Source: Sagittula marina (lineage in GTDB: Bacteria; Pseudomonadota; Alphaproteobacteria; Rhodobacterales; Rhodobacteraceae). Taken from it: 64,000 bases of DNA. Numbering within the stretch: the first letter of the stretch is position 1; each line of letters starts with the position of its first letter. The stretch spans positions 62,001 to 126,000 of the forward strand of contig NZ_JACIEJ010000005.1 in assembly GCF_014196795.1 (NCBI RefSeq), in the 5' to 3' direction. Made by a program: the position numbers and the translations under genes. Below, piece after piece: positions 5,157-60,108 of this stretch. A model generated the notes under the pieces. That model made no database searches. It saw only the letters and a list, made by a program, of their open reading frames with translations, and was not told the origin of the DNA.

Positions 5157-6659
<1,503 letters not shown>

Positions 6660-8722: not shown

Positions 8723-9406
8723 ATGGCAGATAAAACCAAGGATGCAGAGCTGGCCGCGATACGCGCAGCGTACCGCAAAGACGGCTTGCAGGACCGACAG
8801 CGCGCATCCTTCGAGGTTCTGGTGCTAGATGATAGCCGGTTTGATCAAAACCAGATCAAACGGGCCTGCGGCAAAACTGGCTTGCCAGTGACGACGCGGC
8901 TGACCTCCGACATGGACGAGTTCAGTCAAGCTCTTGATGAAAAAGCGTATGACGTCATCCTGATCGACTACATGCTGCCCAAGGGCAATGGCTTGGCTGC
9001 GCAACGTCTGGTGAACAATCACGCCATGAATTTTGGCGCTGCCGTTGTCATGATCTCGTCCGAGATGCGAACCGATGTTGCGGTGGCGTCAATGAAAAAG
9101 GGCTCGATGGACTGCCTCAACAAGGATGCACTGGATCCGGAAAAGCTGCGTGAAATCATGATGGCCTCTGCGAAGATTTTTTCCGAGGCCTCGCGTCATT
9201 GGATCGGGGAATTGCTGGCGCAGCAGCGCGTACAAATCGCACAAGACGTGGCGAAGGTCGTGCGGGACGAAATGGAGTTCGGACGATTTGTGGATACAAT
9301 AGATAAGAGAATTATCGATATGCTGGCGAGTAAAGGTTTTACAGAACCGGAAAATTGGAACGTTTCTTATCTTTTTGATGCGGATGAACCATTGAAGTTC
9401 CGTTAA
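8723..9406 (+). CDS. Response regulator with a receiver domain and uncharacterised C-terminal extension
   Basis: 227 residues. The receiver domain spans about residues 30-155: acidic pair LDDS, phospho-acceptor Asp in ILIDYMLP, switch Ser in MISSEM, and Lys in LNKDAL. A leader of about 30 residues precedes it. The last 70 residues form an amphipathic, probably helical tail with no DNA-binding domain I recognise, so output is probably by protein contact. Start 8723 has GGAG nine bases upstream; ATG 8708 is the alternative. Lower G+C at the 3' end than in neighbouring genes. Pairs with the divergent kinase. Confidence 0.75.
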   Translation: MADKTKDAELAAIRAAYRKDGLQDRQRASFEVLVLDDSRFDQNQIKRACGKTGLPVTTRLTSDMDEFSQALDEKAYDVILIDYMLPKGNGLAAQRLVNNHAMNFGAAVVMISSEMRTDVAVASMKKGSMDCLNKDALDPEKLREIMMASAKIFSEASRHWIGELLAQQRVQIAQDVAKVVRDEMEFGRFVDTIDKRIIDMLASKGFTEPENWNVSYLFDADEPLKFR

Positions 9407-13246: not shown

Positions 13247-14032
13247 ATGGACACGACAGAAACGCTCGTCACCTACGAGCTGCAAGGCGACGTTGCGCTG
13301 ATCGGGCTGAACCGCCCTGAAAAGCGCAATGCGATTTCGGACCGTTTCGTCGAAGCGATCCATGACGCCGTGCAGCGCGCCCAGTCGGAGGCCCGTGCCG
13401 CGGTGATCTTTGGCCATGGCAAGCATTTCTGCGCCGGTCTCGATCTCGCCGAACATTCCGAAAAGCCGCTGTTCGAGGCGGTCAAAGGGTCGCGCCGGTG
13501 GCATGCGGTTTTTGACGGCATCGAACGTGGCCTGATCCCCTTTGTGGCGGCGATCTCTGGCGCGGCCGTGGGGGGCGGGTTTGAACTGGCGGCCTCTGTG
13601 CAGGTCCGTGTCGCAGAGGAAACCGCGTTTTTTGCTCTGCCAGAAGGGCAGCGCGGCATTTTTGTCGGCGGCGGCGGCTCGGTGCGGATTTCGCGCCTGA
13701 TCGGACCGGCGCGGATGGGTGACATGATGTTGACGGGGCGCGTGCTGAAGGCTTCGGAAGCTGAGGCCTGGGGTGGCGTGTCCTATGTGGTGCCGGAGGG
13801 CGGCGCGCTGGACAAGGCGGTCGCGCTGGCGCAGCAAATGGCGACCAATGCGGAATTCACCAACTACTCGGTCATCAATGCACTGCCGCGTATCGCGGAT
13901 ATGTCGTCCGAGGACGGGTTGTTCACCGAAGCGATGGTGGCCTCGCTGGCGACCATGACCGACGACGCCAAGGACCGCCTGCGGGCCTTTCTCGACAAGC
14001 GCGCGGCCAAGGTGCAGGACCCCAATGCCTGA
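13247..14032 (+). CDS. Crotonase-family enoyl-CoA hydratase, probable hydroxycinnamoyl-CoA hydratase-lyase
   Basis: 261 residues. The crotonase fold is shown by NRPEKRNAISDRF, the oxyanion-hole region HFCAGLDLAEH, and GAAVGGGFELAA. The segment FALPEGQRGIFVGGGG places a Glu where feruloyl-CoA hydratase-lyase has its catalytic Glu. With a feruloyl-CoA synthase-like ligase at 22478 and a MarR regulator overlapping its 3' end, the likely role is hydration, and possibly retro-aldol cleavage, of p-hydroxycinnamoyl-CoA thioesters. Start ATG 13247 has GGGAGG. Generic crotonase activity is the alternative. Confidence 0.75.
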   Translation: MDTTETLVTYELQGDVALIGLNRPEKRNAISDRFVEAIHDAVQRAQSEARAAVIFGHGKHFCAGLDLAEHSEKPLFEAVKGSRRWHAVFDGIERGLIPFVAAISGAAVGGGFELAASVQVRVAEETAFFALPEGQRGIFVGGGGSVRISRLIGPARMGDMMLTGRVLKASEAEAWGGVSYVVPEGGALDKAVALAQQMATNAEFTNYSVINALPRIADMSSEDGLFTEAMVASLATMTDDAKDRLRAFLDKRAAKVQDPNA

Positions 14033-52063: not shown

Positions 52064-52080
52064 TCAAGCAGTCGTTTCAT
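51979..52080 (-). CDS. Possible 33-residue peptide overlapping the end of coxF
   Basis: ATG at 52080 lies 17 bases inside the coxF end and opens a 33-codon frame starting MKRLLDWLCRPAQPPLTSEE and ending in KCC. It could be a genuine small coupled gene, a truncated 5' end of a lost coxG-like gene, or chance. No ribosome-binding site other than coding sequence of coxF. Confidence 0.25.
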   Translation of the reverse strand: MKRLLDWLCRPAQPPLTSEEMSQLALNAFPKCC

Positions 52081-52852
52081 CGGTTTCCTCCAGGGTATGG
52101 GGGTCTGAGTTGCGCCATTGAACGATCTCCGCCAGCACCGACAGGGCTATGTCATGTGGGTCGATGCCGCCAAGATCGAGCCCGGCGGGTGACTTCAACC
52201 GCCCGGCCAGAGGGGGCGTGTCGAGTTTTGCGACCAAGGCGGCCGCCTTCCGCGCCGAGGCGATCATTGATACGCGACGCACGGGGCTGGACAGGGCGGA
52301 CTTCAGCGCATCAAGGTCGCCCGCGCCTTGGGTCGCGATCACCACGAAATCCTGTGGGCGCATCTGCGTCAGCTCGCGATCCACGGCCTGCGTTTCGCTC
52401 AGCTCGAGGGCCGGATCGCAGGCCACGCGCAGACCGGCCAGCGCTGCGTGCTGTGCAATGGCCCGCGCGATGGGGGTTGTCCCGAAAAGCGCCAGCATCG
52501 GTGGCAGTTCGTACGGTTCGATCAGCAGGTCCACTGTCCCGCCAGAGGGGCAGCCAGAGCGAAAGACCTGCGCGCCGTCCTCGTCGGTCAATGCCACAAC
52601 CTTGGCCGAGGGTTTGACCCGGATTACGGTGGTGGCCCCGGTCGCGATGGCCTCAAAGGCGGCCTCGCGCACCGCGCGTGTGACGCAACCGCCGCCCAGA
52701 TGGCCCATGATTTCGCCGTCATTGGTGATTGCGGCCTTCGCCCCTGCCTTGGCAGAGGTCACATCGGCGGTGCGTACCACGGTGGCGACACAAAATGGCG
52801 CGCCGGTCTGGCGCAGAGCGGCGATGGTGTCGAAGATGTCGAGCTTGCTCAT
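52064..52852 (-). CDS. coxF: XdhC/CoxF-family maturation protein
   Basis: 262 residues. N-terminal XdhC_CoxI domain (APFCVATVVRTADVTSAKAG, GHLGGGCVTRAV) and a C-terminal Rossmann XdhC domain with IATQGAGDLDAL. Family members help sulfurate or insert the molybdenum cofactor of xanthine-oxidase-type enzymes; here it serves CO dehydrogenase. ATG 52852 has AGAGG eight bases upstream; the ATG five codons earlier overlaps that site. Last intact gene of the cox operon. Confidence 0.82.
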   Translation of the reverse strand: MSKLDIFDTIAALRQTGAPFCVATVVRTADVTSAKAGAKAAITNDGEIMGHLGGGCVTRAVREAAFEAIATGATTVIRVKPSAKVVALTDEDGAQVFRSGCPSGGTVDLLIEPYELPPMLALFGTTPIARAIAQHAALAGLRVACDPALELSETQAVDRELTQMRPQDFVVIATQGAGDLDALKSALSSPVRRVSMIASARKAAALVAKLDTPPLAGRLKSPAGLDLGGIDPHDIALSVLAEIVQWRNSDPHTLEETDETTA

Positions 52853-52863
52853 GTCAAAACCTC

Positions 52864-54033
52864 TCATAACCTCGCGAATTCAGGTTCCAGCCGGGCCAGG
52901 GCATCCAGCGTATTGGCCGGCAGGTGCGCGTCCAGATGGGGCAGCGCGGCCTGCATCGCAGCGTTGACAGGCGCGTAGTCGCGCCAACCCATCAGCGGAT
53001 TCAGCCAGACGATGCGCCGCGTTTTGCGTCGCAGACGGGCGAGGCTTTGGGACAAGGCCTCTGGCGCGCCGGTGCAGTATCCATCCGACAGGATCAGCAC
53101 GATGCTGCGTCCGGTCAGCGCATAGCCATGGCGGTCTGTCAGTGCGTTGATGGCGGCGCCAATATCGGTCCCCCCGCCAAAGCCCTCGGCCATGAGCGAA
53201 AGCCGGGTCGCCGCGCGCAGGCTGTCGTGATCCTGCAGGGCCTGTGTCACCCGCATCAACCGGGTGTGAAACAAAAACGCCTCTGCGCCGGTCTGGGCGT
53301 CCAGCAGCCCCTTGAGGAAGGCCAGGAACACCCGTGCATAGACGGTCATGCTGCCGGAAACATCACACAGCGCCACGATGCGCATCGGGCGCGGCGGCTG
53401 GGTGCGATGGTGTAAATCAAACGCGTCGCCCTTGGAAATCGCAGCGCGCAGGGTGCGCCGCATATCAAGCTCGCGTCCCCGTCTGGCCTGCCTGCGCCGC
53501 CGGGAACGCCGGTCCCGAATGGCGCGCGCGATTTTGCGGGCAGCAGCTTGGGCCTCTCGCAGCGATGCCTCATCCATCAGATTGCGCAGATCCCGTTGCG
53601 ACAGCGCCTCCGTCCGGGTCGCAATCAGGTTGCCCTCGACGCCTTCGGCCTCGCCATCCTCCGTGCTGGGGGTCATGTCGGCCTCTGTGTCGTCGCCGCC
53701 GGACGACGCAAAGTGCGGTTGCCACAGCGTCGGGCGCGAAGACCTGCTGTGCACACTGGCCTGTGTGGTGCCCTCACGCGTCTTGCCAAGGTTGAACCAA
53801 AAGGCATCAAACAGCGCGTCGAAGCCGCGCCAACGGTCCGCATCCGGCACCAGCAACACCTTCAATGCGCGGCGCACTTCCTCGGGGGACAGTGCATCCA
53901 CATGGGTCAGCGCCTCCAGTGCTGCCGCGCCCTCAGTGGGGCCAAGCGGCATCCCGTTCATCCGCAGATGCGCGATGAAATCAGCCATGCGCTCCGACGG
54001 CGTGGCGCGCGCGGGAAAGCGGGTGGTCTGCAT
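52864..54033 (-). CDS. coxE: CoxE, von Willebrand factor A domain protein
   Basis: 389 residues. The C-terminal VWA domain has the MIDAS motif DVSGSMTVYA near residue 221, plus GGGTDIGAA and LILSDGYCTG. Together with the MoxR ATPase CoxD it assembles the CuSMo active site of CO dehydrogenase in Oligotropha. Overlaps coxD by one base (TGATG); a GTG one codon upstream is possible. Confidence 0.88.
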   Translation of the reverse strand: MQTTRFPARATPSERMADFIAHLRMNGMPLGPTEGAAALEALTHVDALSPEEVRRALKVLLVPDADRWRGFDALFDAFWFNLGKTREGTTQASVHSRSSRPTLWQPHFASSGGDDTEADMTPSTEDGEAEGVEGNLIATRTEALSQRDLRNLMDEASLREAQAAARKIARAIRDRRSRRRRQARRGRELDMRRTLRAAISKGDAFDLHHRTQPPRPMRIVALCDVSGSMTVYARVFLAFLKGLLDAQTGAEAFLFHTRLMRVTQALQDHDSLRAATRLSLMAEGFGGGTDIGAAINALTDRHGYALTGRSIVLILSDGYCTGAPEALSQSLARLRRKTRRIVWLNPLMGWRDYAPVNAAMQAALPHLDAHLPANTLDALARLEPEFARL

Positions 54034-54887
54034 CACGCCACCTTGCCCACGATGCGCGCCATGACTTCGGACGGGCAGGCGTCACGGTCCGTCGCGGTCT
54101 TCAACAGGCAGACCAAAGTCGCCTGCAAGGATTTCGGGTCGCCAGACAAATCATTCACACCAAGCCCGGACAGGGCCGCCGCCCAATCCAGCATCTCCGC
54201 GATGCCTGGTGTCTTTTCCAACTCTTCGCGGCGCAAAGCCTGCACCACGGCCACGACCTGCTGCGCCAGTCGATGCTCCAGATCAGGGGCGCGGGCGGTC
54301 AGGATCGCCAGCTCCGTTTCCCGATCAGGGAAATCCAGATAGGCGTACAAACAGCGCCGCCGCAGCGCGTCCGACAGGTCCCGCGTGCCGTTCGCCGTCA
54401 GGATCACCACCGGCTTCGTCACCGCCGTGATCGTTCCCATCTCCGGGATCGTCACCTGGAAGTCCGACAAAACCTCCAGCAAATAGGCCTCGAACTCCAT
54501 ATCCGCGCGGTCGATCTCATCGATCAACAACACCGGCGCTTCCTCTTGCGTAATCGCCTCCAGCAAGGGGCGCTTCAGCAAGTACTTGTCGGAAAATAGC
54601 GTGTCCTCTTGCGCCTCCTCTGCGCGGATCGCCAACAACTGTCGCTGATAATTCCACTCGTAAATCGCGTGCGAGGCATCAAGTCCCTCGTAACATTGTA
54701 ACCGGATCAGCCGCGCGGCCAGCACCCTGGACAGGGCCCGCGCGACCTCCGTCTTGCCCACACCGGCAGGCCCCTCAACCAGCAGCGGTCGCCCCAGCAT
54801 CATCGCCAGGTGCAACGCCATCACCAGCGTCTCGTCTGCCACGTACCCCACGCCCGCCAGCGCGTGCTTCAGCTTCGCCTGATCCAT
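54033..54887 (-). CDS. coxD: CoxD, MoxR-type AAA+ ATPase
   Basis: 284 residues. Walker A VEGPAGVGKTEVARA, Walker B VLLIDEIDRAD, sensor 1 ILTANGTRDLSDALRRRC. Chaperone-like ATPase for active-site maturation of CO dehydrogenase, partner of CoxE. ATG 54887 is the most likely start, but its ribosome-binding site is poor, and the dispersed repeat begins just upstream. Confidence 0.88.
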   Translation of the reverse strand: MDQAKLKHALAGVGYVADETLVMALHLAMMLGRPLLVEGPAGVGKTEVARALSRVLAARLIRLQCYEGLDASHAIYEWNYQRQLLAIRAEEAQEDTLFSDKYLLKRPLLEAITQEEAPVLLIDEIDRADMEFEAYLLEVLSDFQVTIPEMGTITAVTKPVVILTANGTRDLSDALRRRCLYAYLDFPDRETELAILTARAPDLEHRLAQQVVAVVQALRREELEKTPGIAEMLDWAAALSGLGVNDLSGDPKSLQATLVCLLKTATDRDACPSEVMARIVGKVA

Positions 54888-54890
54888 AGC

Positions 54891-54950
54891 CTGCTTCTTT
54901 GCTTCAAAATACTCTGGAGGGGGCCGGGGGAGGCAAAGCCGCCCCCGGTC
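54891..54950 (+). repeat. Dispersed intergenic repeat, copy D
   Basis: CTGCTTCTTTGCTTCAAAAT then ACTCTGGAGGGGGCCGGGGG and a hairpin around GGGGG...GCCGCCCCC. Lies between coxL and coxD within the operon, in reverse orientation to both. Core shared with copies A and B. Confidence 0.55.
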
Positions 54951-54984
54951 GATCACCTCGGCACGATGGCCGAGGCGATGCCCA

Positions 54985-57405
54985 TCATCCGTGCAGCCCC
55001 AACTCATCTGCAATGCGCCACACCCGCCAGTGGTCGTGTGGCATATGCGACTGTACCAGACCAAACGCGCGAAAAGCATCGTGCACCGCATTGGAAAACG
55101 CCGGAACCGAGCCGACGTTCGGGCTTTCGCCCACACCCTTCGCCCCGATGGGATGGTGCGGCGATGGCGTCACGGTAAAGTCCGTCTGATAGGTCGGCGT
55201 CTCCATCGCTGTGGGCACAAAAAAGTCCATCAGCGTCGCGGTCTTGTGGTTGCCCATTTCGTCGTAGGCAATTTCCTGACCCATGGCGATGGCGTAGCCT
55301 TCGGTCGCGCCGCCATGCACCTGGCCTTCGATGATCATCGGGTTGACCCGCGTGCCGCAGTCATCCAGCGCATAGAACTTGCGGATTTCGTGCTCGCCCG
55401 TGTCCACGTCCAGCTCCATGACGCAGATATACGCGCCAAACGGGTAGGTCATGTTTGGCGGATCGTAATAGCTGACCGCCTCCAACCCCGGCTCGACCCC
55501 GGGGATCGCCTGATTGTACGCGGCAAAGGCGATCTCCTTCATGGTCTTGAACCGTTCCGGATTGCCCTTCACCGCAAACCGATCCACGTCGAATTCCACG
55601 TCATCGTCGTGCACTTCGAGCAGATAGGCCGCGATCATCTGGGCCTTTGCCTTGATCTTGCGCGAGGCCATGGCCGTGGCCGCCCCCGCAACCGGCATCG
55701 AGCGCGAGCCATAGGTCCCCAGACCATATGGGGCGGTATCGGTGTCGCCTTCCTCCAGTGTGATATCATCGGCCGGGATACCGATCTCCGAGGCGATGAT
55801 CTGGGCAAAGGCCGTGGCGTGCCCCTGACCTTGGGAAATGGTGCCAAGCCGCGCAATCGCAGACCCCGTGGGATGAATACGGATTTCGCAACTGTCGAAC
55901 ATCCCAAGCCCGAGGATATCACAGTTTTTCACTGGCCCCGCGCCGACGATCTCGGTGAAAAACGACAGCCCGACCCCCATCAGCTTGCGCGTCTTGCCGG
56001 CTTTGAAATCCTCGATCCGCTGTGCTTGTTCAGCCCGCAGCGCCTTGTAATCCACAGCCTCCAGCGCCTTGTCCCAGGCGGTGTGATAGTCGCCGCTGTC
56101 GTATTCCCAACCCAGCGCAGACTGATAGGGGAACTGCTCCTTCTTGATGAAGTTGATGCGCCGCAGCTCGGCGCTATCCATGTCCAGCTTGATTGCCAGC
56201 ACTTCGATCATGCGCTCGATGAAATAGGCAGCCTCCGTCACCCGGAACGAACAGCGATAGGCCACGCCGCCCGGTGCCTTGTTGGTATAGACCCCATCCA
56301 CCGACAGGTAGGCCGTGGGAATGTCATAAGACCCGGTGCAGATGTTGAAGAACCCGGCCGGGAATTTGGTCGGGTCCGCACAGGCGTCAAAGCCGCCGTG
56401 GTCGCCGATCACATGGCAGTGCAGACCGGTGATCTTGCCTTCCTTGGTGGCGGCGATCTTGCCTTTCATCCAGTAATCGCGGGCAAAGGCGGTGGACATC
56501 AGGTTGTCCATCTTGTCCTCCACCCACTTCACCGGCTTGCCCGTGACGATGGAGGCGACAACCGAACAGACATAGCCGGAATAGGCCCCGACCTTGTTGC
56601 CGAAACCGCCGCCAATGTCCGGGGACACCACGCGGATCTTGTGCTCCGGAATTGACGAGATCAGCGAGACAATCGTGCGGATCGCGTGCGGCGCCTGAAA
56701 CGTCCCGTACAGCGTCAGCTTGCCGGTCACCTTGTCCATCGACGCCACACAGCCGCAGGTTTCCAGCGGATTGGGGTGCGTGCGGTGGTAATAGACCATC
56801 TCCTCGGCCACCACGTCAGCGGTGCTCATCACCTGTTCGGTGGCCGCCTCGTCGCCTTGTTCCCAAGTGAAAATATGGTTGTGATGCTTGCGCGGACCAT
56901 GTGCGCCTTCGGTCTGGCCTTCGAGGTCTTCGCGCAGCACCGGCGCGTCCGGCTCCAGCGCCTTGAACGGATCGGTGACCACGGGCAGATCTTCGTAATC
57001 GACCTCCACCGCTTCGACCCCGTCAGAGGCCGCATAGCGATCATTGGCCACCACAAAGGCCACTTCCTGCCCCTGGAACAGCACCTTGCCATCGGCCAGG
57101 ACCATCTGCTTGTCGCCTGCCAGCGTGGGCATCCAGTGCAGGCCAAGCGGCGCCAGATCCTCGGCGGTCAGAACGGCGACCACGCCCGGAATGGCCAGCG
57201 CGGCCTCCTTGTTGATGCTTGTGACACGGGCGTGCGCATACGGCGAGCGCACGAAATCGCCGAACAGCATGCCATCCATCTTGATGTCGTCGACGTAGTT
57301 GCCCTTGCCTTGGGTAAAGCGCACATCCTCGACGCGTTTGCGCGCGCAGCCCATGCCCTTGAGGTTCTCGCGGCGTTCCTCGGTGCTTGTGACCTCGTCC
57401 TTCAT
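54985..57405 (-). CDS. coxL: Aerobic carbon monoxide dehydrogenase large subunit, form I
   Basis: 806 residues, the molybdopterin-binding catalytic subunit oxidising CO to CO2. The active-site loop reads [23 protein letters not shown] with the Cys that carries the Cu-S is diagnostic of form I (true CO dehydrogenase), unlike AYRGAGR of form II. Also [30 protein letters not shown]-type cofactor loop ([13 protein letters not shown]), and [16 protein letters not shown] with the conserved Glu. Start overlaps coxS by four bases. Confidence 0.96.
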
Positions 57406-57896
57406 TCCGCGGCCTCCTTCTGCGCGTTAAGCTGGTCAGCAGCGGCCAGCACAGCCTTCACGATGTTCTGGTAGCCGGTGCAGCGGCACAGGTTGCCCGC
57501 GATGCCAAAGCGCACATCTTCCTCGGTCGGGCTGGGGTGCTCCTGAAGCAGGCGGTGAACGCGGGTGATCATACCCGGCGTGCAGTATCCGCACTGAAGA
57601 CCGTGATGCTCTCGAAACATTTCCTGGATCACCGACAGCGTGCCATCGGGATTGGTCAGCCCTTCGATCGTGGTGACGTCCGCCCCGTTGGCCTGCGCCA
57701 CAAAGACGGTGCAGGATTTGACCGACTTGCCATCCATATCCACGGTGCAGGCCCCGCAGTGCGAGGTCTCGCAGCCGATATGGGGGCCGGTGATGCGCAG
57801 GTTTTCGCGCAGAAAGTGGATCAGCAGCGTGCGCGGTTCCGCCAGCCCTTCGACCTCTTCCCCGTTCAGGGTGAACTTGACGTGCATCTTGCTCAT
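57402..57896 (-). CDS. coxS: Carbon monoxide dehydrogenase small subunit
   Basis: 164 residues carrying two [2Fe-2S] clusters. Plant-type cluster [16 protein letters not shown] (with a following C), and the alpha-helical cluster [10 protein letters not shown] plus [13 protein letters not shown]. Passes electrons from the Mo site to FAD. ATG 57896 has AGGA eight bases upstream; the open frame farther up reads antisense coxM. Confidence 0.95.
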
Positions 57897-57900
57897 GCTC

Positions 57901-58737
57901 TTATCCTTTCGCTCGGGTGAGGGCGCGCTCCATGGCGCGACGGATGACAACGCCGGCAACGTGGCGTTTGAAGGCGATGGGGCCACGCATGTCTTCTTGT
58001 GGGTCGATGGCCGCGAGGGCCGCAGCCACGGCACCATCCACATCCCCGGCGGCCAGCGCCGTACCGGCTTGCTCGGACCAGATCGGCGTATCGGCAAGGT
58101 TGGTCATCGCCACAGAGGCACCATCGCCGCTGACGATCACACCGCAGGCGGCCGTGGCGTAATCCCCGACCTTGCGCTTTTGCTTTTCATAGGCAAAGCC
58201 ATGACCGGCAGCGGGCAGGGGGATCGTGACCTTGGTCAGGATCTCCTCCTCCTCGCGGGCGGTGAAATAGGCGCTTTCGTAGTACGCCCGCGCCTTGATC
58301 TCGCGCGGACCATCCGCACCTTCGACGGTAAAGCGCGCGTCGAGGCACTGCATCAAGCCGGGCATGTCGTTGCCGGGATCGCCGTTGGCGACGTTGCCGC
58401 CCAGCGTGCCCATGTAGCGCACCTGCGGATCGGCAATGAGCAACGCGGCCTCGCGAATAATCGGCAAGGCCGTCGCCAGCGCGTCACTGGTGATCAGCTC
58501 GTGCTGGGTGGTCATGGCGCCGATGACAACGCTGTCCGATGTGACTTCGATGCCCCGGAGCGACGCGATGTCCTGAAGGTCGACCAGATGCCCGATCTCT
58601 GTCATGCGCAGCTTCATCATCGGGATCAGGCTGTGACCACCGGCGACGACCCTGGCCTCGTCCCCATGCGTGTTGAGAATGGAAAGCGCCGACGCAAGGT
58701 CGGCCGGCCGATGGTATTCGAACGCGGCTGGTATCAC
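57901..58737 (-). CDS. coxM: Carbon monoxide dehydrogenase medium subunit
   Basis: 278 residues, FAD-binding. FAD pyrophosphate loops [16 protein letters not shown] (near 32) and [20 protein letters not shown] (near 110). Begins with GTG at 58737 preceded by GGGAGGGACAGATC. First gene of coxM-S-L-D-E-F. The upstream 243 bases contain a direct repeat that may bind the LytTR regulator encoded just before. Confidence 0.94.
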
Positions 58738-58832
58738 GATCTGTCCCTCCCTGTGGTCATCATGATCTGTGCCGGAATGCTATCCGGTCGCCGATGGGGA
58801 CAAACGGTTTGGCCATGAAACACAGGGGGTCT

Positions 58833-58860
58833 TGCACGAAATGCGAATGGGCTGCACGAA
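58833..58860. promoter_or_regulatory. Direct repeat upstream of coxM, candidate LytTR (CoxC) site
   Basis: TGCACGAA occurs at 58833-58840 and again at 58853-58860, exactly 20 bases apart (read toward coxM: TTCGTGCA twice). LytTR domains bind pairs of short direct repeats about two helical turns apart. It lies 96-123 bases before the coxM start, just downstream of the gene for an MHYT-LytTR protein. Confidence 0.55.
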
Positions 58861-58980
58861 CGGCGTACCTTCTGATCTGGTGCGGCGGCTTTGTCCGGTT
58901 CGTTTTGGGTGCGCAGATGCGGCATCTCGTGCCGCAGTGCAGCAGCGCAGAGGGCGGAATCCTGGGACTGGAGGCGCGCC

Positions 58981-60108
58981 TCAGATGCCGAGCGCGTTGC
59001 GCACCTCAGAAAGGCGCGACCGGCTGACCGGGACCTTTTGCAGGGACGCGGTGGAGGCGAGCAGGCAGACCCCGGTGTCTTTCTTGCGCTCGAACCCGGT
59101 GACGAAACTGGGATTTATCAGGTAGCTGCGGTGGCTGCGGATAAAGTGCGACGGAGCCAGACGGCTCTCCGCCTCGGAGATCGACCAGGGGCAGAACAGT
59201 TTCTCTGACCCTGCATACAACAAGGTATAATGCCCCTCCGCCCGCACCGCCGCGATGGACTTGCGGTCAAGGAATTGCGTCCGCCCTTCCTTCTCGAACG
59301 GCACGGGTGGCAGCGAAGGCTCTTCAATCTCGTGACCCGGATCGGCTGGCGCGCGTGGCTCCGGGACGGCAGGTGTGCTGACGGCCTCCGCGACCGGCTC
59401 CAGAAAACTCACCCCGGTCAGCAGGAACGCGCCGGAGATGACAAAGGCGGTGACAGTGACGCCCATGGCCATCACCTCGTTGGAGATTTCAGGCCCCACC
59501 GCAAAGGCGTCATTTGGAACAAACCCGGTGCCCGCCATCGCAATGTAATGCACCGCGCCGACAGAGACCGCGAAACACACCGTGCCCAGCAGCGTGTTGC
59601 CCCGCGTCCGCGCGCCATAGGCCACCCAAATCGCCAGGTTCGACAGCAACAGCGCGCTCAACACCGACACCGCCACCCCGGTGAGGTCAAAAACCGGCGC
59701 GCACAGCTCCATCCCCAGCATCCCGACGTAATGCATGGCCGCAATGCCAAGGCCCATGATGCTGCCCGCAGTCGTCAGGGTCACAGCGGTCCGGTTGCGG
59801 AAATGCAGGATCAGCAGGGCGAGACCCATCATCAGGATCGCAATGAGCGCCGAGACCAGCGTCATCAGACCGTCATAGTAAAACCGGATCGGCAGTTCGA
59901 GGCCAAGCATGGCAACGAAGTGCATTGACCAGATCCCGCCGCCCAGAACGATGGCCGCGATCACCAGGGTCATCTTGCGCTGCAAACTTGGAAGGCGCGA
60001 CGCCCCCCGCGTCAAAGACAGGCCGCTGAACCCGGCCATCAAAGCGATGGCCAGAGACGCCATAACAAGCCAGGCGTTATGCGATATCTCCAACAGCGTC
60101 TGGTCCAT
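58981..60108 (-). CDS. coxC: MHYT-LytTR membrane regulator (CoxC/CoxH-like)
   Basis: 375 residues. N-terminal half: seven likely membrane segments with three MHYT-type motifs (WSMHFVAMLG, AAMHYVGMLG, GAVHYIAMAG), proposed metal sites for sensing CO, O2 or NO. A Pro-rich linker follows. Residues about 275-375 form a LytTR DNA-binding domain (IRSHRSYLINPSFVTGFERK). Oligotropha CoxC and CoxH have this build. ATG 60108 begins just before the first membrane segment; a 25-codon longer frame is possible. Same strand as, and directly before, coxMSL. Confidence 0.8.
   Translation of the reverse strand: MDQTLLEISHNAWLVMASLAIALMAGFSGLSLTRGASRLPSLQRKMTLVIAAIVLGGGIWSMHFVAMLGLELPIRFYYDGLMTLVSALIAILMMGLALLILHFRNRTAVTLTTAGSIMGLGIAAMHYVGMLGMELCAPVFDLTGVAVSVLSALLLSNLAIWVAYGARTRGNTLLGTVCFAVSVGAVHYIAMAGTGFVPNDAFAVGPEISNEVMAMGVTVTAFVISGAFLLTGVSFLEPVAEAVSTPAVPEPRAPADPGHEIEEPSLPPVPFEKEGRTQFLDRKSIAAVRAEGHYTLLYAGSEKLFCPWSISEAESRLAPSHFIRSHRSYLINPSFVTGFERKKDTGVCLLASTASLQKVPVSRSRLSEVRNALGI

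Follow-up and report, generated by a model that had tools for sequence, protein, structure and literature searches.

Organization of the cox region in the window

The window analysed here is the whole 64,000-nt stretch of Sagittula marina DNA. On its minus strand it carries a gene for a CoxC-like regulator, followed by coxM, S, L, D, E and F in this order (Table 1). The gene adjoining coxM had been predicted to encode a CoxC-like MHYT-LytTR protein, and the domain search bore this out: PF03707 and, at the C-terminus, PF04397 scored above the Pfam cut-off, and in an alignment the protein is 35% identical to CoxC of Afipia, with a conserved LytTR end (VPVSR). Its MHYT motifs read MHFVAM, MHYVGM and VHYIAM, the third having V for M. 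The sensor of RcoM is a heme-binding PAS-type domain; no RcoM-type sensor domain was found in the CoxC-like protein by Pfam at E 0.001, which gave MHYT and LytTR only. Comparison with solved structures returned a single weak match, 3d6w, in the LytTR region. The translation of coxL contains the motif AYRCSFR, which we take to mark form I. No coxB was found next to coxC in the window.

One other LytTR gene is present in the 5.04-Mb genome (match G000:C3:185119-185394; L226:1605-2510, minus strand). It encodes a protein of about 301 aa with a hydrophobic N-terminal half and lies away from the cox genes.

Table 1. Features of the coxC-cox region, with positions in the window
Feature	Position	Strand	Basis and remarks
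coxC-like regulator gene (MHYT membrane sensor plus LytTR)	58981..60108	-	Pfam MHYT 117.4 bits, LytTR 58.5 bits; open frame extends to 60183
Box I CGCCGTTCGTGCA	58853..58865	-	Unit of 13 bp whose core TTCGTGCA occupies 58860-58853; 18.0 bits against a matrix built without the window
Box II CGCATTTCGTGCA	58833..58845	-	Core at 58840-58833; offset from box I by 20 bp; 23.2 bits against a matrix built without the window
Putative box III TTCATGGC	58812..58819	-	21 bp from box II; weak, -6.5 bits alone
Putative -35 TTTGTC	58799..58804	-	7 bp after box III; our reading
Putative -10 TAGCAT	58777..58782	-	Spacer 16; offset +58 from box II; our reading
Putative coxM ribosome-binding site GGGAGGG	58745..58751	-	Sequence; G/A-rich family columns 92-96 after box II
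coxM, CO dehydrogenase flavoprotein subunit	57901..58737	-	Pfam FAD_binding_5, CO_deh_flav_C; start aligned with relatives
coxS, iron-sulfur subunit	57402..57893	-	Pfam Fer2_2
coxL, molybdenum subunit	54985..57405	-	Pfam MoCoBD_1, MoCoBD_2; AYRCSFR in translation
coxD (MoxR-type AAA), coxE (VWA), coxF (XdhC/CoxI family)	52064..55136	-	Pfam AAA_5, VWA_CoxE, XdhC_CoxI; coxD start within the block tentative

A spaced direct repeat upstream of coxM

The stop codon of the coxC-like gene (58983-58981) and the coxM start are separated by a gap of 243 bp, which contains two copies of an 8-bp sequence. On the coxM (minus) strand the arrangement is TTCGTGCA-N12-TTCGTGCA, with the copies at 58860-58853 and 58840-58833; read on the plus strand it is TGCACGAA at 58833-58840 and 58853-58860, offset by 20 bases. 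The original prediction of an exact repeat with a 20-base offset, 96-123 bases 5' of the coxM start at 58737, agrees with the sequence. At up to 3 mismatches the spaced pair is unique in the window, where window shuffles gave 0.86 such matches on average, and in the 5.04-Mb genome the coxM site is the sole perfect match, one further place having 2 mismatches.

The frequency with which such a repeat arises by chance was estimated from 2000 dinucleotide shuffles of the 243-bp coxC-coxM gap. An exact 8-mer direct repeat was found in 0.6% of the shuffled gaps at spacing 20 and in 2.9% at spacing 18-23, and the proportion rose to 19% at spacing 10-60 and to 40% at spacing 8-235. The repeat in this one sequence is therefore weak evidence by itself, too little to exclude chance, and it is the comparison across loci described below that makes the case strong and by which chance was ruled out.

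A more specific expectation comes from RcoM1. At the Paraburkholderia xenovorans LB400 cox promoter the sites of this regulator are direct repeats of TTCNNGCA that have 12-13 bp between them and lie upstream of the -35 element (as cited in PMC11347149). A pair fitting this consensus at period 20-21 occurred in 0 of the 2000 gap shuffles and exactly once in the 64-kb window, at the coxM site. A search for TTCGTG-N14/15-TTCGTG, which covered 60 of the 97 coxC-bearing family genomes and whose matches were read by eye, gave 3 matches in the genome studied here: the cox site and two identical copies of TTCGTG-N15-TTCGTG elsewhere (G000:C6:20504-20530 and G000:C13:108673-108699), which score 7.9 bits as a box pair. 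An ORF near the first of these two copies (L224) resembles a transposase by eye.

The conserved unit is a 13-bp box with a period of 20 or 21 bp

The regulator was searched for in 394 genomes of the family and matched in 101 of them. Four matches (G356, G351, G130 and G309) were set aside, as only the MHYT part matched, in frames of 793-1054 aa, and the other 97 were counted as coxC-like. We kept the 92 loci in which coxM lies at most 900 bp downstream of the coxC-like gene on the same strand; the five excluded ones have no coxM within 900 bp, either at contig ends (L018, L090) or with coxC displaced (L027, L055, L063).

When periods of 14-30 were allowed, the best TTCGTGCA-like pair had a period of 20 in 44 loci and of 21 in 41 (85 of the 92 together). 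A pair matching at least 13 of 16 positions was present in 88/92 loci, while the controls gave 5/92 for the reversed sequence and 1/92 for the opposite strand. From 84 pairs of the 92 loci a 13-position family matrix was built, according to which the conserved unit is the 13-bp box CGCAnTTCGTGCA. With this matrix and periods of 19-22, period 20 was obtained in 48/92 loci and period 21 in 44/92. In 90/92 loci the pair, with its period of 20 or 21, reached 18 bits, a threshold that L092 (16.5 bits) and L099 (9.1 bits) missed; this count is to be read with the fact that these loci largely built the matrix that scored them. No second pair of at least 18 bits was found in the 792,661 bases of the 92 loci, both strands included. 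In the window, boxes I and II together score 41.7 bits, and the best pair without these boxes scores 5.4 bits. Of the 8-bp, two-copy unit first proposed for this site, both copies are real; the conserved unit is longer, 13 bp, and a weaker third copy had been overlooked.

Among the family loci, conserved columns occur only at the boxes, in the region of the third box, at one isolated column and at the ribosome-binding site. Box II precedes the coxM start by 99-113 bp in 74/92 loci, whereas the interval between the coxC stop and box I varies from -14 to 236; the array is thus kept in register with coxM. An overlap of operator and coding sequence is seen in 23 of the 92 loci (e.g. among L050-L058), in which the coxC stop codon ends 11 or 14 bases after the start of box I.

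A putative third box and the proposed layout of the coxM promoter

The site in the window has two strong boxes and one weak one, and the position of the third is enriched in the family. The II-III pair reaches 17.0 bits in the window because box II contributes this score. In the nearest relatives (L003-L008), TTCAT[GA]GC stands at the box III position in all six, and TTC is found at +20 or +21 from box II in 46/90 family loci, the mean being 2.2% per offset. Box-like scores average -8 at +18 to +23 and between -21 and -24 in six further ranges of offset. Many rhizobial loci have a clearer third box, for example TTCGTGCC or CTCGTGAC, 19 bp further on. We consider from these sequence comparisons that the boxes before coxM probably number three rather than two. 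Boxes I and II match TTCNNGCA and TTNNNGCN exactly, and TTCATGGC matches TTCNNG only, not the C at position 7. The spacers, 12 bp between boxes I and II and 13 bp between II and III, agree with the 12-13 bp of the RcoM1 repeats.

A scan for consensus sigma-70 promoters found none at the coxM site, the putative -35 and -10 included. The elements in Table 1 have counterparts in other loci: a TTTG or TTGG hexamer stands at the matching distance after box III in 6/6 of L003-L008, and TAnnnT at +57 to +60 from box II (summed) is found in roughly 19% of 90 loci, the per-offset average being 0.6%. All three boxes lie upstream of the putative -35.

The boxes outside the family and at rearranged loci

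We further scored 50 out-of-family loci, hand-picked by organism name or handle, with the family matrix, allowing periods of 10-40 and using 100 shuffles per locus. Among the 44 with coxM, the best pair lay at 19-21 bp in 42, of which 38 reached at least 18 bits, and 43 beat 100/100 shuffles, L201 being matched by 1/100; in these counts L167 and L204 have the same sequence, as have L110 and L169, and the assignment of the MAG contigs L127 and L141 may be wrong. The exceptions were L178 and L198, with a period of 31, and L153, L192, L201 and L206, below 18 bits. Of the 6 loci lacking coxM, L113 and L185 have a pair and L174 has one with period 31. Class-wide matches to the MHYT part alone (L208-L223 among them) were left out of the comparison. 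Absence of the repeat from related cox promoters had been named in advance as the result that would speak against an operator; the repeat is present in 90/92 family and 42/44 out-of-family loci.

Loci in which the regulator and the cox genes have come apart serve as natural experiments. In four of four loci with coxC displaced, the pair still precedes coxM (L104, 44.1 bits; L105, 40.2; L106, 45.2; L231, 32.4), and no pair was found in the 300 bp after distant MHYT-LytTR genes whose loci have no coxM (L168, L188, L203). Conservation owed to the 3' end of coxC was ruled out on these two grounds. The overlap of box I with the coxC end in 23/92 family loci and the 40% of shuffled gaps that contain an exact 8-mer repeat at some spacing would favour a chance repeat or a mere by-product of coxC coding sequence; the near-constant period over 92 loci, the persistence of the pair before coxM when coxC is elsewhere and the restriction of conserved columns described above all argue against either, and we regard such an origin as extremely improbable.

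In the genome of L231 coxC lies downstream of the cox genes. This locus also has a second pair in the opposite orientation (14085, plus strand, 27.7 bits), near the pair at 13997 (minus strand, 32.4 bits) before coxM.

Four coxL operons without an adjacent coxC match (L101, L232, L233, L234) showed no box pair. A fifth coxC-less locus, L100, has a degenerate pair of 15.7 bits that nevertheless beats 100/100 shuffles and looks like a remnant. Other coxL genomes without a coxC match were left out (G008, G110, G732; coxL at contig end); G354 (L102) ends inside coxM, and L103 (G102) has just 69 bp 5' of coxM.

At five loci the regulator is followed by an EAL-domain gene instead of coxM, and box pairs were scored at all of them: Sinorhizobium meliloti L113 (33.2 bits) and L227 (35.2), Rhizobium leguminosarum L229 (28.1) and L230 (13.1), and Nitratireductor luteus L185 (41.0). 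Since the boxes are retained at these loci, they track the regulator and not the cox genes only. The combination of regulator and EAL gene may form a gas-sensing switch of cyclic-di-GMP breakdown. In L185 a coxM-like stretch overlaps the start of the EAL frame, as though cox genes had been replaced.

These loci bear on whether the boxes could be bound by a regulator other than CoxC, either the second LytTR protein or an unlinked factor, with CoxC acting elsewhere. The second LytTR gene at G000:C3:185119-185394, the possibility that related LytTR proteins share targets and the remnant kept by L100 without a coxC match are consistent with such a factor. Against it, the boxes co-occur with coxC and are missing from four coxC-less cox operons, they remain beside coxC-like genes where the cox genes are gone, and the family matrix ranks first an Afipia promoter known to bind CoxC (see below). 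Another regulator at the boxes is therefore improbable in our judgement.

Re-examination of the Afipia cox region

The original prediction held the DNA targets of CoxC to be undescribed. This is out of date, since binding of CoxC of Afipia (Oligotropha) carboxidovorans OM5 to direct repeats at the promoter PcoxB has been published. According to the main text of PMC11347149, the LytTR domain of CoxC has an apparent KD of about 25 nM for PcoxB, CoxC represses PcoxB in E. coli, and CO relieves both repression and binding via the MHYT domain with copper. The repeats reported at PcoxB are three, of the form TTNNNGCN, with 18-21 bp between them and overlapping the predicted -35 (PMC11347149). As PMC11347149 cites, canonical LytTR sites consist of two 9-bp direct repeats that stand 10-13 bp apart.

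A 17-kb region that includes the Afipia cox genes (L108, pHCG3) was scanned on the cox strand with the family matrix at periods of 19-22. The first-ranking hit was the PcoxB operator (22.8 bits, at 6189, period 21), which supports the reading of the family box as a CoxC operator; the second was the coxC-coxM gap (21.7 bits, at 9229, period 20), and the next scored 6.1 bits. In the coxC-coxM gap (L108:9229-9276) the boxes are TTCGTGCA, TTGGTGAC and CTGGTGCG at 20-bp periods. The name PcoxM is not present in the main text of PMC11347149, and our literature searches gave no other paper relevant to the coxM promoter site. The widespread CoxC-type site at coxM is apparently new, and so is its copy in Afipia.

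The positions of the published PcoxB repeats were inferred from the bases changed in the primers of PMC11347149. They start at 6201, 6230 and 6256, which leaves gaps of 21 and 18 bp, matching the stated 18-21 bp, and gives start-to-start distances of 29 and 26 bp. The conserved register places the boxes instead at 6189, 6210 and 6230, in steps of 21 and 20 bp, with scores of 14.9, 7.9 and -8.5 bits, the third being weak. The published register of repeats may need revision. Of the three bases changed in the probe PcoxB1, one is the G that conserved box II has at position -4, and G occupies this position in 99% of the training boxes. PcoxB1 showed weak CoxC binding (PMC11347149), which agrees with the conserved register, as a near-invariant G of box II was changed, and is not proof of it.

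In the conserved register PcoxB has a layout nearly identical to that of the coxM site, box III being followed after 6 bp by TTTGAT. Both belong to cox clusters with an MHYT-LytTR regulator and have direct repeats, three at PcoxB and probably three in the window; PcoxB precedes coxB, while the site in the window precedes coxM, fits CGCAnTTCGTGCA and lies upstream of the putative -35. The soluble activator RcoM1 is heme-based, unlike the MHYT protein of the window, in which Pfam gave no other sensor domain; the RcoM1 consensus is fitted exactly by boxes I and II. Direct repeats about two helical turns apart are also shared with canonical LytTR sites, from which the window site differs by a 13-bp box with an added CGC, often a third copy, and a one-component gas-sensing regulator.

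The layout admits two opposite signs of regulation. CO-bound CoxC at the same site could activate coxM in the manner of Paraburkholderia RcoM1, by contacting RNA polymerase upstream of the -35: RcoM1 and most LytTR regulators are reported to bind there and to activate (PMC11347149), the putative -35 follows 7 bp after box III, a spacing common to L003-L008, and the distance from box II to coxM is steady (99-113 bp in 74/92 loci). On the other side stand the repression of PcoxB by Afipia CoxC and its relief by CO (PMC11347149), the near-identical layout of that promoter in the conserved register, and the putative nature of the coxM promoter elements, at which the consensus scan found nothing. 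We regard activation as possible but rather doubtful, and with modest confidence prefer CO-relieved repression, given that CoxC acts as a repressor at PcoxB, whose layout is almost the same.

Discussion

The genomes compared here show directly the boxes upstream of coxM, how they are conserved, spaced and placed, and that they are linked to coxC. Taken together, these features indicate that the boxes very probably serve as the operator for CoxC, the MHYT-LytTR protein whose gene adjoins them on the upstream side. A repeat of this kind had been proposed as a candidate operator of the adjacent CoxC-like protein, and the conservation before coxM and the Afipia CoxC precedent support that proposal. 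Several points weigh against it: the L100 remnant that beats its shuffles, the 2/92 family and 6/44 out-of-family loci that fall below 18 bits or depart from the period, the weakness of box III, the presence of a second LytTR protein in the genome, the activator-like position of the boxes upstream of the putative -35, and the consensus scan that gave the proposed promoter elements no support.

By analogy with Afipia, we infer CoxC binding, the response to CO and the sign of regulation at the coxM site. In the preferred model, repression relieved by CO, CoxC anchored in the membrane would occupy boxes I-III through its LytTR domains, immediately 5' of the coxM promoter. The spacing of about two helical turns between the boxes, two strong 13-bp ones and a weaker third, would let these domains align along a single face of the helix. 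Without CO, CoxC on the boxes would keep coxMSLDEF expression low, as Afipia CoxC does at PcoxB. When CO is sensed by the copper-dependent MHYT domain, CoxC would be released from the boxes.

The Afipia comparison suggests a broader reading, towards which we lean slightly. The widespread, possibly ancestral CoxC operator would be the 13-bp CGCAnTTCGTGCA array at 20-21 bp before coxM, and Afipia would have it too, apparently unreported, besides PcoxB, so that the CO dehydrogenase genes would own a CO-switched promoter inside the cox cluster. On the same reading the published PcoxB repeats would be out of register, the real boxes being TTCATGCG, TTGGTGGA and TTTGGGCA at 21 and 20 bp, and the loss of binding to PcoxB1 would reflect the altered near-invariant G of box II.

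Bacterial aerobic CO oxidation is reported to remove much of the CO entering the atmosphere (PMC6794299), and in the literature located CoxC binding has been assayed at one promoter of one carboxidotroph. The view that the coxM site is a known kind of CoxC operator, with a better-defined box and at a new, widespread location, is well supported by the sequence comparisons. The sharpness of the conserved box would make CoxC targets predictable in other orders and, within one family, in some ninety genera, and it indicates a checkable correction of the published CoxC operator map. The site at coxM makes the sign of CoxC regulation testable at the CO dehydrogenase gene itself.
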